NCBI GenBank assembly: GCA_003021745.1
Contig: PXQY01000063.1
Coordinates: forward strand, 17,539-61,966
From: Halobacteriales archaeon QH_7_69_31
GTDB taxonomy: Archaea > Halobacteriota > Halobacteria > Halobacteriales > Haloarculaceae
Direction: 5' to 3'
Length of the DNA stretch: 44,428 nucleotides
Both the position numbers and the translations under genes were made by a program. The notes beneath the pieces were generated by a model that saw only the letters and a program-made list of their open reading frames with translations, made no database searches and was not told the DNA's origin. Of this stretch, positions 2,575 through 22,137 are shown piece by piece; positions within the stretch are counted from its first letter, which is position 1, and every line of letters begins with the position of its first letter.

Positions 2575-3506
2575 GCCCGACGCTTGGTCGCGGCAGTCGA
2601 TTAACTCTTCCCGTTCGGTGGCGACGCGTCACCCTGATACCGCTCGACCCCGGAGGCGTCGATACGATGGACGCCGAGGCGGTCCGCGAGCGCGCCGAGG
2701 ACCTCCCGCGGGAGCCCGGCGTCTACCAGTTCGAGGCCGACGGCGACGTGGTCTACGTCGGCAAAGCCGTCGACGTCCGGGACCGGGTCCGCAGCTACGC
2801 CGACCCGCGGAGCGAGCGCATCCGGCGGATGGTCCGGGCCGCCGACGACGTCGACGTCGCCGTCACGGACACCGAGACCCAGGCGCTGTTGCTCGAGGCG
2901 AACCTCATCAAGCGCCACCAGCCGACGTACAACGTCCGGCTGAAGGACGACAAGTCCTACCCGCTCGTCCAGCTGACCGACCACGCGTTCCCCCGGATCC
3001 AGGTCACGCGGGATCCCGACGACGGCGCGACGGTGTTCGGGCCGTTCACGAACAAGGGCCGCGTCGACACCGTCGTGAAGGCGCTCCGGTCGGTGTACGG
3101 GCTCCGCGGCTGCTCCGACCACAAGTACGCCGACCGGGACCGGCCGTGTCTCGACCACGAGATGGGGCTGTGTACGGCGCCGTGTACCGACGAAATCGAC
3201 GCCGATAGCTACGCCGACGACGTCGAGTCGGCCGTCCGGTTCCTGGAGGGCGAGACGGGTGTCCTCGCGGGCCCGCTCGGCGAGGCGATGGACGCGGCTG
3301 CAGAGGAGCGGGCGTTCGAGCGCGCCGCGTCCCTCCGGGACCGGCTGGACGCCGTCGAGGCGTTCCACGGGGGCGGCGGCGAGGCGGTCGTCGCCGACCG
3401 GGAGGAGACCGTCGACGTCCTCGGGGTCGCGACGGAGGGCGACGCGGCGACGGTCGCGCGGCTCCACAGCGAGGACGGGAAGCTGGTCGACCGGGACCGT
3501 CATCGG

Positions 3507-19188: not shown

Positions 19189-19848
19189 TTACCGCCCCTT
19201 CCTCAACCGCTGGCCGGTGTCCCGCGGGAGTCCGGCAGCCTCGACGGCGTCGACGACGCGGTCGACGTCGTACTCGACGCGGTGTTCGTCCACGGCGAGT
19301 GTGTCGAGGTCGACGACGGCGTACGCCGCCCGCGGGTCCTGGTCCCGCGGCTGCCCGACCGCCCCCGGGTTCAGCACGACGCCGTCCTCGTAGGTCTCGT
19401 GGGCCTGCACGTGGGTGTGGCCCATCACGAGGACGTCCTCCCCATCGAGCAGCTCCTCGGAGAACAGCTCCGGGTAGGTGTAGCGGTTCGGGTCCTCGGG
19501 GTGGCCGTGGACGACCTTCAGCCGGCCGTCGAAGACCAGCCGCTGGTCGGGAAGGCCGGCCAACCACTCGTGGCGGTCGTCGTCGAGTGCCTCCCGAGCG
19601 TACTCGACGCCGTCGTCGGCCATCCGGTTGCCGGCAAAACCCGTCCCCGTCACGACCGCCCGGTCGTGGTTGCCCATAACCGTCGGCACGTCGCGATCGC
19701 GGAGGGCGTCGACGCACTCGACGGGCCAGGGGTTGTAGCCGACCACGTCGCCGGCACAGACTAGGGCATCCACGTCGGGCATGTCCTCGAGCACCGCGTC
19801 CAGGGCCACGCGGTTGCCGTGGATATCGGAAATGACGCCAGCGAGCAT
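19189..19848 (-). CDS. Metallophosphoesterase (YfcE/MJ0936-like)
   Basis: A 219-residue calcineurin-like phosphoesterase with two metal sites. Motifs in order: SDIHGN at 7-12, GDVVGYNP, MGNHD, VHGHPED and MGHTHVQ. These provide all usual metal ligands. I chose the ATG at 19848 (MLAGVISDIHGN) because the preceding in-frame residues are arginine/serine-rich and unlike the family. Substrates of this family vary (phosphodiesters, nucleotides), so none is assigned. It is preceded 134 bp upstream by the purO 3' end on the same strand. Confidence 0.9.
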   Translation of the reverse strand: MLAGVISDIHGNRVALDAVLEDMPDVDALVCAGDVVGYNPWPVECVDALRDRDVPTVMGNHDRAVVTGTGFAGNRMADDGVEYAREALDDDRHEWLAGLPDQRLVFDGRLKVVHGHPEDPNRYTYPELFSEELLDGEDVLVMGHTHVQAHETYEDGVVLNPGAVGQPRDQDPRAAYAVVDLDTLAVDEHRVEYDVDRVVDAVEAAGLPRDTGQRLRKGR

Positions 19849-19982
19849 ACGCCGGTGTAGGACCGGCGACGGGTAAGAGGTGGCGGTCCCGCCGCGTCCG
19901 ACTCGGGCGCTCACGCAACGGTCGGACCGGGCGCTCACCCAATAGTCGACCCGGTCGCCGCCCCTTCACCGACGGCCCAGCC

Positions 19983-20561
19983 CTACGGGCCGTTGTAGAA
20001 CCCCGTCGCGAACCCGTCCTCGGTCGCCGTGACCGCGGCCGCACACACCGGGTGCTCGAGGTCGAACTCGTAGACCTCCCGCGCCATCGCCTCGGGTTCG
20101 GTCGCCTCTAGGTCGGTGGCCTCCGGGCGGTCCGTCTCGTAGGTCGCGACGAGCGTCGGCGCCTCGACGGCCTCGACGAGCAGGGCGTCCCGGCGGACGA
20201 TGCCGACGTAGCTCTCCGCGCCGACGACGCCGGCGACGCGGGGCGTGTCGTAGTCGTCCTTCTCGTAGTCCAGCGCCAGAAGCGTCGCCGCGAGGGCGTC
20301 CCGGGCGGGGTAGCCCGCCTCGAGTTTCTCGACGATCGGGTCGACCTGCGTCCCGTTGCCGACGACTGCGGCCGCGTCGTCGTCGGTCGTCCGCAGGCAG
20401 TTGTAGGAGATGTAGGGGTTGTCGGTCGCCGGGGCCTCGGCGGTGGGGGCGACGGTCAGCGTGCCGTCGCGGTCGACGATCCGGCGGTGCGGGAACGACC
20501 GCGAGGACACGCGGTAGGCGGCCCGGTCCGGTGCGACGACGACGAAGCGGCCGACGTACAT
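19983..20561 (-). CDS. purO: IMP cyclohydrolase, archaeal PurO type
   Basis: A 192-residue archaeal IMP cyclohydrolase that closes the second ring in the last step of purine synthesis, converting FAICAR to IMP. It starts with the signature [12 protein letters not shown] and continues [22 protein letters not shown] and a C-terminal [15 protein letters not shown]. The length matches the family. The ATG at 20561 is fixed by the conserved N-terminus. It is divergent from the phosphatase-like gene at 20742, with an AT-containing 180-bp gap that includes CGATATACAG and CATATATG, likely TATA elements. Confidence 0.93.
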
Positions 20562-20741
20562 GCGCGGTGGTGCAGACGGCGGGGCCATGTCGGTGTCGGT
20601 TCGCCGATGGCGCTGGCGGCGGCCACACCCCCGAGGAGCATAGACCGAATGTTTCGATATACAGCCGCATATATGTCTCAATAGCCCGATTTCCGGGGTT
20701 TCATCGGTGGCTATTTGGGGTCGTCGGCGGTAGTGGGCGGT

Positions 20742-21170
20742 ATGGACTCGACGGTCCCGCGCGTCGCGTTCGTCTGCGTGCAGAACGCCGGTCGGAGCCA
20801 GATGGCCGCCGCCTTCGCCCGCCGGGAGGCCGGCGTCCGAGGCCTGGACGTCGAGGTGCTGACCGGCGGCACCGACCCGGCCGACGCCGTCCACCCCGAG
20901 GTCGTCGAGGCGATGGCGGGGGTCGGGATCGACCTCTTGGACAGCCAGCCACACGGGATCGACACTGCGGAACTCGAGACCTGCCGCCTCGTGGCGACGA
21001 TGGGCTGTTCGACCCTGGAGTTGGACGCCGATGTCGACGTGCGGGACTGGGCGCTGCCGGATCCGCACGGCGAGGACAGAGAGCGGGTCCGGGAGATCCG
21101 CGACGAGGTCGAATCGCGGGTGGAACGCCTCTTCGACGATCTGGAGCGGGAGATTGGCGTCGAGGGGTAG
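20742..21170 (+). CDS. Low-molecular-weight phosphatase / thioredoxin-type arsenate reductase
   Basis: A 142-residue protein with the LMW-PTPase fold. The P-loop C12-x5-R18 ([12 protein letters not shown]) and the acid motif ALPDPHGED are intact. Cys81 and Cys89 ([12 protein letters not shown]) sit where arsenate reductases of the ArsC/LMW type have their redox pair, which favours arsenate reduction over protein dephosphorylation. No ArsR or arsenite pump is adjacent, so this stays open. The ATG at 20742 follows a GGGCGGT stretch. Confidence 0.8.
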
Positions 21171-21207: not shown

Positions 21208-22005
21208 ATGGTGACCGAATGGGAGTGCATCGAGGGGCTCCAGAAAGCGGCCCGACGGTTGGGGGAGTCGCCGACGAAAATGGAGTACGAGGCCCTGGGA
21301 CTGCGACCAGCATCGGCGACGATCATCAGACAACTCGGCGGGTGGAACGCCGCCAAGGAAGCCGCCGGGCTGGAAACGAACCCCTCGACCGGCTCTCGCG
21401 TCGGTAAGAAACCCGACGACATAGCGCTTCCCGAGGGCGTTTCATGGGACGAACTGTCGGTCGATCAGCGGTGGCACTATCGAAACCGTGAGTGGAACAA
21501 AGAACGGACGCGCAGAAGACGGGCGGGACTTCGAGCGTGGCTCAATAACCGGAAGCACGACCGAGGCTGCTTGGACTGCGGTAGAACGGACCCCGCGTAT
21601 CTCGACTTCCACCACCGCGAGGAGGCCGACAAGGAGATGGCAGTCGGTCGGATGGTCACCTTCGGGTACGGGCGGGACGCACTGAATTCGGAGATAGAGC
21701 GGTGTGCGGTTCTCTGCGCGAACTGCCACCGGAAGGAGCATCACACCGAAACGACCGATGAATTACGGGCGTGGCTCCACGAGCGGAAGGCCGAACGGGG
21801 CGGCTGTTCGGAATGCAATGAAGATGACGTGGCGTGTCTCGACTTCCACCATACGACCGACGAGAAGACCGACACGGTCGCGAGGATGGTCACCGATGGC
21901 CGGCCGAAGGAGATCCTGAAGGATGAACTAGAGCGATGTGAAGTCCTCTGCGCGAACTGTCACCGCAAGATACATTTCGAATCGCCGGACTGTTTCGAGG
22001 AGTAG
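21208..22005 (+). CDS. Homing-endonuclease-like protein with two tandem HNH modules
   Basis: A 265-residue protein. Residues ~10-55 match the homing-endonuclease-associated helical repeat (SPTKMEYEALG followed by RQLGGWNAAKEAAGL). Two HNH-like zinc modules 78 residues apart follow. Module one has CLDCG at 121, LDFHH at 132 and CANCHRKEH at 170. Module two has CSEC at 200, LDFHH at 211 and CANCHRKIH at 248. Each is preceded by LRAWLxxRKxxRG, so the modules arose by internal duplication. The central DFHH and CxxCH groups look intact in both. It ends 59 bp before tRNA-Gln. It is probably a free-standing mobile-type endonuclease. Confidence 0.8.
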   Translation: MVTEWECIEGLQKAARRLGESPTKMEYEALGLRPASATIIRQLGGWNAAKEAAGLETNPSTGSRVGKKPDDIALPEGVSWDELSVDQRWHYRNREWNKERTRRRRAGLRAWLNNRKHDRGCLDCGRTDPAYLDFHHREEADKEMAVGRMVTFGYGRDALNSEIERCAVLCANCHRKEHHTETTDELRAWLHERKAERGGCSECNEDDVACLDFHHTTDEKTDTVARMVTDGRPKEILKDELERCEVLCANCHRKIHFESPDCFEE

Positions 22006-22024
22006 ACGAGTCGTCCGAACACGA

Positions 22025-22037
22025 CAATAATAAATAG
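22025..22037 (+). promoter_or_regulatory. TATA box of the tRNA-Gln gene
   Basis: AATAATAAATAGA is the only strongly AT-rich word in the gap and lies 28-40 bases before the tRNA, a usual distance for archaeal tRNA promoters. Confidence 0.55.
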
Positions 22038-22064
22038 AGCCACGGCGTTCGAATCTGTGCAGGC

Positions 22065-22137
22065 AGTCCCGTGGTGTAGTGGCCAATCATGTGAGCTTCT
22101 GGGGCTCACGACGCTGGTTCGAATCCAGCCGGGACTA
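22065..22137 (+). tRNA. tRNA-Gln (anticodon CTG)
   Basis: A full cloverleaf is visible. The acceptor arms AGTCCCG (22065-22071) and CGGGACT (22130-22136) pair, with A as discriminator. The anticodon stem TGAGC/GCTCA encloses the loop TTCTGGG, giving anticodon CTG. The T arm is GCTGG-TTCGAAT-CCAGC. There is no intron and CCA is not encoded. Confidence 0.93.

Follow-up and report, generated by a model that had tools for sequence, protein, structure and literature searches.

A free-standing HNH gene anchored at tRNA-Gln(CTG) in haloarchaea, probably a homing endonuclease with an exchangeable nuclease half

The window, by which we mean the whole analysed stretch of 44,428 nucleotides from Halobacteriales archaeon QH_7_69_31, contains an HNH endonuclease gene at positions 21208..22005 of the plus strand. 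Its translation is a protein of 265 amino acids with an N-terminal HNH_repeat domain, a linker and two HNH modules. The repeat domain (residues 6–56; 21223..21375, plus strand) matches PF18780 with an E-value of 3.1e-10, and the 40.7 bits of this match pass the Pfam gathering score of 26. HNH module 1 (21568..21741, plus strand) has CxxC at residue 121, DFHH at 133 and CxNCH at 170, and HNH module 2 (21805..21975, plus strand) has the same motifs at 200, 212 and 248. The motifs of the two modules are spaced by 78–79 residues, and both DFHH...CxNCH sets, the HNH catalytic motif, are intact. The gene is a free-standing open reading frame, outside any intron or intein, and its stop codon lies 59 bp ahead of a tRNA gene. 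The initial annotation had described a homing-endonuclease-associated repeat followed by two modules 78 residues apart with intact DFHH and CxxCH groups, standing 59 bp before an intact tRNA-Gln with no intron. Our analysis agrees with this description; the anticodon of the tRNA is CTG.

The gene order in the window is phosphoesterase, purO, phosphatase-like gene, HNH gene, tRNA-Gln. The calcineurin-like phosphoesterase (19192..19920, minus strand; PF12850, E 1.8e-25) is the second upstream neighbour and was used in the host tree. The purO-type IMP cyclohydrolase (19986..20588, minus strand; PF07826, E 1.2e-59) is the conserved upstream neighbour. A low-molecular-weight phosphatase-like gene (20742..21170, plus strand; PF01451, E 2.2e-21) lies between purO and the HNH gene. 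The tRNA-Gln(CTG) gene (22065..22137, plus strand; 55.6 bits) is the proposed anchor of the HNH gene and the likely target region of its product. Between the two, the sequence contains a TATA-like element, AATAATAAATAG (22026..22037, plus strand), the presumed tRNA promoter, which suggests that the window tRNA-Gln has a promoter of its own. We also looked for a duplicated attachment site, and the 22-base 3' end of the tRNA occurs only once in the 44,428-base window, allowing up to 3 mismatches. The second copy of the tRNA 3' end that should bound an integrative element with a tRNA attachment site is thus absent from the window.

The AlphaFold2 model of the protein, built from an eight-sequence alignment, has a mean pLDDT of 85.8 and consists of a small helical domain (helices 4–52), a long helix and two like modules. 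The HNH_repeat domain is probably DNA-binding. A Foldseek search of the PDB with the model gave no match at E ≤ 0.001. All VIA-align matches had Z below 5; the N-terminus was matched to helix-turn-helix-type and other structures, and the modules showed weak likeness to the HNH enzymes 4h9d (Z 3.6), TasH 9w04 (Z 2.9) and T5 SciA 9qgx (Z 2.1). The first of these is an HNH nickase of G. metallireducens, which module 1 weakly resembles. Such weak matches are consistent with the fold without proving it. At the level of sequence, the generic HNH model PF01844 gave 16.9 bits, under its cut-off of 21.4, and two PHROG HNH-endonuclease families each matched two stretches of the protein (phrog_3106, E 1.2e-38; phrog_2255, E 5.6e-34). 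The NCBIfam search returned nothing useful, and the PDB sequence search returned a single weak match, to 5-methylcytosine-specific restriction enzyme A (E 0.0055). PADLOC weakly matched the HNH part to mREase_IV, the Type IV methyl-directed restriction enzymes (E 1.7e-6). The match is limited to the HNH part (profile positions 194–266 of 277) and does not extend to the recognition part of a Type IV restriction enzyme. No second copy of the gene was found in the window's genome assembly, which is 73% complete.

We assessed the distribution of the gene in 391 haloarchaeal genomes drawn from across the class, with a match threshold of E ≤ 1e-8. A homologue was detected in 134 genomes and in 47 of 86 genera, and was not found in 257 genomes. 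Loci were fetched around the best match for 120 of the 134 genomes; the window and the remaining 13 were added separately. With ARAGORN at default settings, the next downstream tRNA on the same strand was tRNA-Gln(CTG) in 118 of the 120 loci, in 117 of them within 400 bp. The last two loci, L116 and L133, also have tRNA-Gln(CTG), with an intron in the anticodon loop, which brings the count to 120 of 120. Among the remaining 13 genomes, tRNA-Gln(CTG) follows a gene fragment in L222 (133 bp), L227 (162 bp) and L225 (779 bp), and another tRNA lies within 400 bp in L223 (Lys), L226 and L230 (both Gly). The fetched stretch holds no tRNA in 7 of the 134 genomes, that is, in L221, a fair match (E 2e-24), and in six whose match is confined to the repeat or its vicinity. 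In total, a downstream tRNA-Gln(CTG) on the same strand is present in 124 of the 134 matching genomes. The initial annotation had pointed to tRNA genes as a common target of mobile DNA. The suspicion of mobility is supported by the results below, but the gene does not insert at tRNAs generally: it sits almost always at one tRNA, Gln(CTG). About a third of the sampled haloarchaeal genomes carry this gene, which is probably selfish.

In most genomes of the sample the tRNA-Gln(CTG) gene is single-copy. purO lies upstream, on the opposite strand, in 101 of 121 gene-bearing loci (118 of the 120 fetched loci, together with the remnant L159, L002 and the window) and in 25 of 38 gene-less tRNA-Gln(CTG) loci tested. 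Since purO is found both with and without the HNH gene, the tRNA address is old, and the association of gene and tRNA is partly due to inheritance.

Several loci deviate from the common arrangement. In L029 the tRNA-Gln is 1,744 bp from the HNH gene, and an extra 460-residue frame lies between them on the opposite strand (-1740 to 0 from the tRNA); by eye, it looks like an IS200/IS605 TnpB. In L230 (1096-2141) and L226 (1251-1944) an HNH_repeat frame follows tRNA-Gly(CCC). The frame in L230 also precedes a second, partly degenerate tRNA-Gly copy, and the one in L226 ends in an HNH-like stretch by eye. L228 (genome G087) has an open frame of 484 residues with five matches to the HNH_repeat part. 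In L223 (1287-1878; G294) a one-module relative, in which CxNCH reads CANSH, begins 13 bp downstream of a tRNA-Lys(TTT) that has an intron.

The comparison of tRNA-Gln loci with and without the gene, proposed in the initial annotation, revealed paired loci with alike flanks in which the gene is either present or absent between purO and the tRNA. The upstream DNA of the window and of its gene-less sister L144 is 93–94% identical up to the end of the phosphatase-like gene, which in L144 ends just ahead of the tRNA promoter region, and the HNH gene is absent there. Homology touches again at tRNA-Gln(CTG), in which 11 positions differ, and resumes 687 bp (window) and 1,977 bp (L144) from the first base of the tRNA. 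The difference between the two genomes therefore reaches beyond the gene side, because the DNA just after the tRNA is also non-homologous. In genus g37 the gene-bearing L071 and the gene-less L178 have 89% upstream identity and 19 differences in the tRNA. We read four gene-less sites by eye: L172 and L166 appear to keep remnants of the gene ends, and no gene scraps are visible in L164 and L176. Judging from these remnants, L172 and L166 are probably deletions. The reading in which gene-less sites reflect insertion only was rejected for L172 and L166. Because two of the four closely read sites resemble deletion scars, the patchy presence of the gene is partly explained by loss.

A strict motif test for an intact frame was passed by 96 of 118 loci and failed by 22, although L085 and L121 among the latter may be intact with a variant motif. 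L116 and L133 are outside this count and outside the oriented analyses, since ARAGORN by default missed their intron-bearing tRNAs. The initial annotation had regarded two nuclease modules in one protein as uncommon. It turned out that 49 of the 96 intact-looking homologues have two modules and 47 have one. In 19 of the 96 the HNH stop codon is only 23–31 nt ahead of the tRNA, and in the five examples inspected a TATA-like element lies at that position. Intact copies are under purifying selection, with dN/dS of 0.09–0.30 in 15 close homologue pairs, which implies that the activity of the protein is kept. Purifying selection and the homologues in 134 of 391 genomes argue that the window gene is not a chance frame. 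The mean GC content is 59.2% for the HNH gene and 68.4% for purO, and the HNH gene is lower in 77 of 77 comparisons.

To relate the nuclease to its hosts, we used quick-mode trees of one or two genes. The rows of these trees and of the identity tables were 98 loci in which both motifs are readable in one frame, 78 of these that also have purO, and 69 that have the phosphoesterase as well. The gene tree of the 98 rows divides the proteins into type A, with 27 rows, and type B, with 71, each present in several families; membership of a type is taken from this tree. Types A and B are about 50% identical in the nuclease half, and several genera contain both. On the tree of purO and the phosphoesterase (69 rows), 22 genera require 21 changes of the genus label, which is the minimum. 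On the same tree the nuclease type changes 12 times, all changes being forced by starred branches (shuffled mean 14.5), and the number of modules changes 18 times. With 78 rows, the type changes 15 times on the purO tree (shuffled mean 18.8), 8 times on the tree of the N-terminal domain and once on that of the nuclease modules. The initial annotation had named synteny, vertical inheritance and absence of mobility as what would speak against its proposal. Synteny with purO is indeed present, but descent is not purely vertical, as the host tree requires at least 12 switches of the nuclease type.

The switching is visible in close relatives. In seven congeneric pairs with purO proteins 94–99% identical, the HNH proteins are only 51–59% identical, e.g., 99 and 57% in L033/L114, 98 and 54% in L027/L118, 97 and 53% in L034/L130, and 94 and 56% in L042/L109. 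Among pairs whose purO genes have a nucleotide identity of 85% or more, A–B pairs (n = 250) have a mean identity of 75.4% in the N-terminal domain and 48.9% in module 1, and same-type pairs (n = 369) have 78.9% and 71.0%. In the 11 listed sister pairs of type A and type B, the N-terminal domains are 72–91% identical in nucleotides and the first modules 41–53% in amino acids. From these sequences it follows that the N-terminal repeat stays with the host locus, and the nuclease half has repeatedly been exchanged between close relatives.

The limits of the exchanged tract were determined by our own arithmetic from the alignments. In L033/L114, L027/L118, L034/L130, L075/L120, L042/L109, L041/L112 and L030/L114 homology on the left breaks off within the HNH gene at about codons 51–61 (about 92 in L033), close to where the repeat ends. 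In the same seven pairs the right homology resumes at the first bases of the tRNA (at -78 in L027/L118). Two further pairs, L072/L115 and L062/L114, give one continuous alignment with no clean break. Thus, as far as can be read from the alignments, the exchanges recur with limits near the repeat end and the 5' end of the tRNA. In genus g71, two loci (L053 and L065) have a tandem pair of HNH genes separated by a third gene, from about -2900 to 0 relative to the tRNA. The outer copy is common to both loci (76 of 82 module residues identical). The inner copies agree in the N-terminus (79 of 86 residues) and only at 44 of 83 residues in the module, and the tRNA-Gln(CTG) genes of the two loci differ at 16 of 73 bases.

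The tRNA itself is unusually variable in one set of genomes. In the 14 genomes of seven A/B pairs, tRNA-Gln(CTG) occurs as 8 alleles that differ on average at 8.3 and at most at 20 of 73 bases, and five other tRNAs of the same genomes have 1–3 alleles differing at no more than 2 of 55 bases; these genomes were chosen as swap pairs and are no random sample, and the isotypes were partly read from the loops. By eye, there are paired changes in the stems of tRNA-Gln(CTG). The correlation of nuclease and tRNA distances with purO distance removed is weak (partial Mantel r 0.083; 0.064 of the permutations as high). In genus g3, tRNAs are at least 98.5% identical in 36 of 56 pairs of a gene-bearing and a gene-less locus, and the differences are mainly in the promoter. 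In the 12 mixed pairs outside g3, tRNA identity is 99% in three and 74–92% in the other nine. The tRNA is less alike than purO in 25% of 28 gene-less, 29% of 68 mixed and 38% of 1142 gene-bearing pairs; L162, in which we found no intact tRNA, is outside the pair tests. Mean tRNA identity in these groups is 92.9%, 91.2% and 89.4%, respectively. The 60 bp ahead of the tRNA are 61.0% alike in the 68 mixed pairs and 78.1% in the 28 gene-less pairs. Therefore, the exchange is marked by the promoter region more than by the tRNA.

Relatives were also found beyond haloarchaeal chromosomes. A phylum-level draw gave 4 genomes with a relative among 279, the centre G394 included. Relatives of the one-module kind occupy nine loci in other archaea, including Pacearchaeota and Nanoarchaeota, and six of the nine lie no more than 200 bp from a tRNA (two Gly, one Trp, one Cys and two Arg, of which one is on the opposite strand). 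The rough chance expectation for a tRNA within 200 bp is about 5%, assuming about 45 tRNA genes per genome. No tRNA lies near the bacterial relative L185. In haloviruses, the HNH relative of HCTV-16 overlaps tRNA-Gln(TTG), that of HGTV-1 lies among tRNAs, and that of HCTV-5 has no tRNA nearby. The HCTV-16 and HGTV-1 genes are the best matches among phage records (47–50% identity) and, like the window gene, adjoin tRNA genes. Unlike it, they match only from residue 57–58, so that the N-terminal repeat lies outside the match, and their tRNAs are other ones. It is possible that these haloviruses serve as a vehicle for the gene. A scan of viral contigs with the alignment gave one distant locus, L180, with a tRNA-Ile on the opposite strand 7 bp from the end of the match, and the plasmid search gave one partial match.

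Taken as a whole, the locus is probably occupied by a free-standing gene for an HNH homing endonuclease, anchored directly in front of tRNA-Gln(CTG) and spreading by double-strand-break repair. We favour this reading because it explains together the anchoring, the patchiness, the decay, the selection on intact copies and the limits of exchange. The HNH protein would bind DNA through its N-terminal repeat and cut a chromosome with no HNH gene, or with one of another type, at its tRNA-Gln(CTG) region. Repair from the gene-bearing chromosome would then transfer the nuclease half together with the tRNA promoter and, in some cases, the tRNA allele. The donor would be spared because its own promoter or tRNA sequence differs. 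Clean loss may be costly, as the tRNA is single-copy in most genomes and in some species the stop codon is near or inside the tRNA promoter. We infer the DNA cleavage, its target, the role of break repair in the exchange and the immunity by sequence difference from comparison of the loci.

A bolder version of homing makes the gene a natural cleave-and-rescue element of cellular chromosomes. The HNH protein would cut the tRNA-Gln(CTG) of rivals, and the cassette would carry the promoter and an immune, sequence-changed working tRNA. If this is true, repeated invasion explains the variability of tRNA-Gln(CTG) and the intron in the copy of two hosts. We consider this doubtful and keep it only as a lesser reading, because genus g3 mostly contradicts it. 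Engineered Cleave-and-Rescue drives, as presented in the available text of PMC7951863, are similar on this boldest reading in that a nuclease travels with a changed needed gene; they differ in being synthetic, and the tRNA carried in haloarchaea is not as a rule a changed one.

The exchange tracts and the switches, at least 12 in number, fit homing with co-conversion, and ordinary recombination could yield the same. Haloarchaea recombine freely between species, and therefore the exchange need not be nuclease-driven. The nuclease may thus be passive at a recombination hotspot, where inter-species homologous recombination, anchored by the N-terminal coding region and the tRNA, swaps the middle with no cutting by the HNH protein. 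The exchange limits at conserved stretches, the common decayed copies, the tRNA variation that gene-less pairs also show, and the frequency of haloarchaeal recombination all agree with this. Such passivity is nevertheless unlikely, as the dN/dS values in the 15 pairs imply that activity is kept, and the nuclease half switches at least 12 times on a tree of purO and the phosphoesterase that follows the genera exactly.

It is rather improbable that the protein is a domesticated or defensive nuclease which cuts incoming viral DNA, e.g., tRNA-Gln genes of viruses, with an arms race driving the diversity of its nuclease half. Purifying selection, the weak likeness that PADLOC found between the HNH part and Type IV restriction enzymes, and the halovirus with a tRNA-Gln beside a related HNH gene would suit such a role, but the gene is missing from the matches in 257 of 391 genomes and is often decayed, and defence leaves its fixed seat at one tRNA unexplained. 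Plain vertical inheritance of an ancestral gene or of a tandem A and B pair, syntenic and with differential loss in place of mobility, is very improbable: the synteny of purO, the tandem copies in L053 and L065, the probable deletion scars and the clustering of family labels on the gene tree (15 changes, shuffled mean 42) speak for it, but the host tree needs 12 switches and sister A and B copies agree in the N-terminus and differ in the modules. Old tandem paralogues were rejected on the latter point, because they would differ along their whole length.

Homing endonucleases of cellular chromosomes are mostly found inside introns and inteins, and free-standing ones are known mainly from phages. 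Here, such a gene would keep to one tRNA gene throughout an archaeal class, with one domain that is stationary and a nuclease half that can be exchanged. Nearly identical flanks around different types, or around no gene, in sister species make homing outside phages directly testable. The same species make nuclease-driven change of a tRNA gene directly testable.

The closest worked example, by analogy, is SegB of phage T4, a free-standing GIY-YIG homing endonuclease of the T4/T6 tRNA region (PMC2988022, PMC13096335, PMC6409571). According to the accessible parts of these papers, SegB likewise stands free among tRNA genes, cuts within them and spreads itself together with neighbouring tRNAs; its cut motif is RAWTSGAAC, in our reading the complement of the tRNA T-loop. 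Unlike the haloarchaeal gene, it belongs to the GIY-YIG and not the HNH family, resides in a phage and is associated with a tRNA array in place of a single tRNA. The cutting and inheritance of SegB have been measured, and the haloarchaeal gene is known from sequence. The T4 mob proteins are free-standing HNH enzymes, and segG is described as containing promoters that serve the essential gene 32 downstream of it, a feature said to help its retention (PMC2988022, in the text available). The 19 of 96 haloarchaeal copies with a stop codon 23–31 nt ahead of the tRNA resemble segG in this respect. Mob and SegG differ in the DNA-binding part, in having protein-coding neighbours and in belonging to a phage. 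Domain swapping and allele exchange of homing endonuclease genes are described for ICP1-like phages, where these genes also lie beside essential genes and are unstable by frameshift and deletion (PMC10448857, available part). That case concerns phage genomes, unlike the exchange on cellular chromosomes at a single tRNA of an archaeal class. HNH endonucleases near archaeal tRNA clusters are mentioned in general terms in the portion of PMC6333295 at hand. The literature covered by our search, thin on subscription journals, held no account of an HNH gene beside the tRNA-Gln(CTG) of haloarchaeal chromosomes.

Some further features of tRNA-Gln(CTG) loci were observed. The introns in L116 (3269-3374) and L133 (3417-3532) are 33 and 42 nt long according to ARAGORN; both belong to genomes of family f1 (G199 and G273), in which no uninterrupted tRNA-Gln(CTG) pattern was found genome-wide. 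In L162 (G295) the tRNA-Gln(CTG) at about 3008-3065 is broken, its 5' half being degenerate, and the CTG pattern matches again 18.5 kb away in the same genome. Extra copies of the 3' part of the tRNA lie about 100–300 bp downstream of tRNA-Gln(CTG) in L080, L164, L146 and L133 and resemble footprints of integrative elements. Many loci (e.g., L022, L025 and L172) have a hairpin leader (CGTCGGT...ACCGACG) followed by AAACATGTC about 35 nt upstream of tRNA-Gln(CTG). By eye, this leader lies between the promoter and the mature tRNA in loci both with and without the HNH gene, and the folding of three examples gave z of -1.6 to -2.3.
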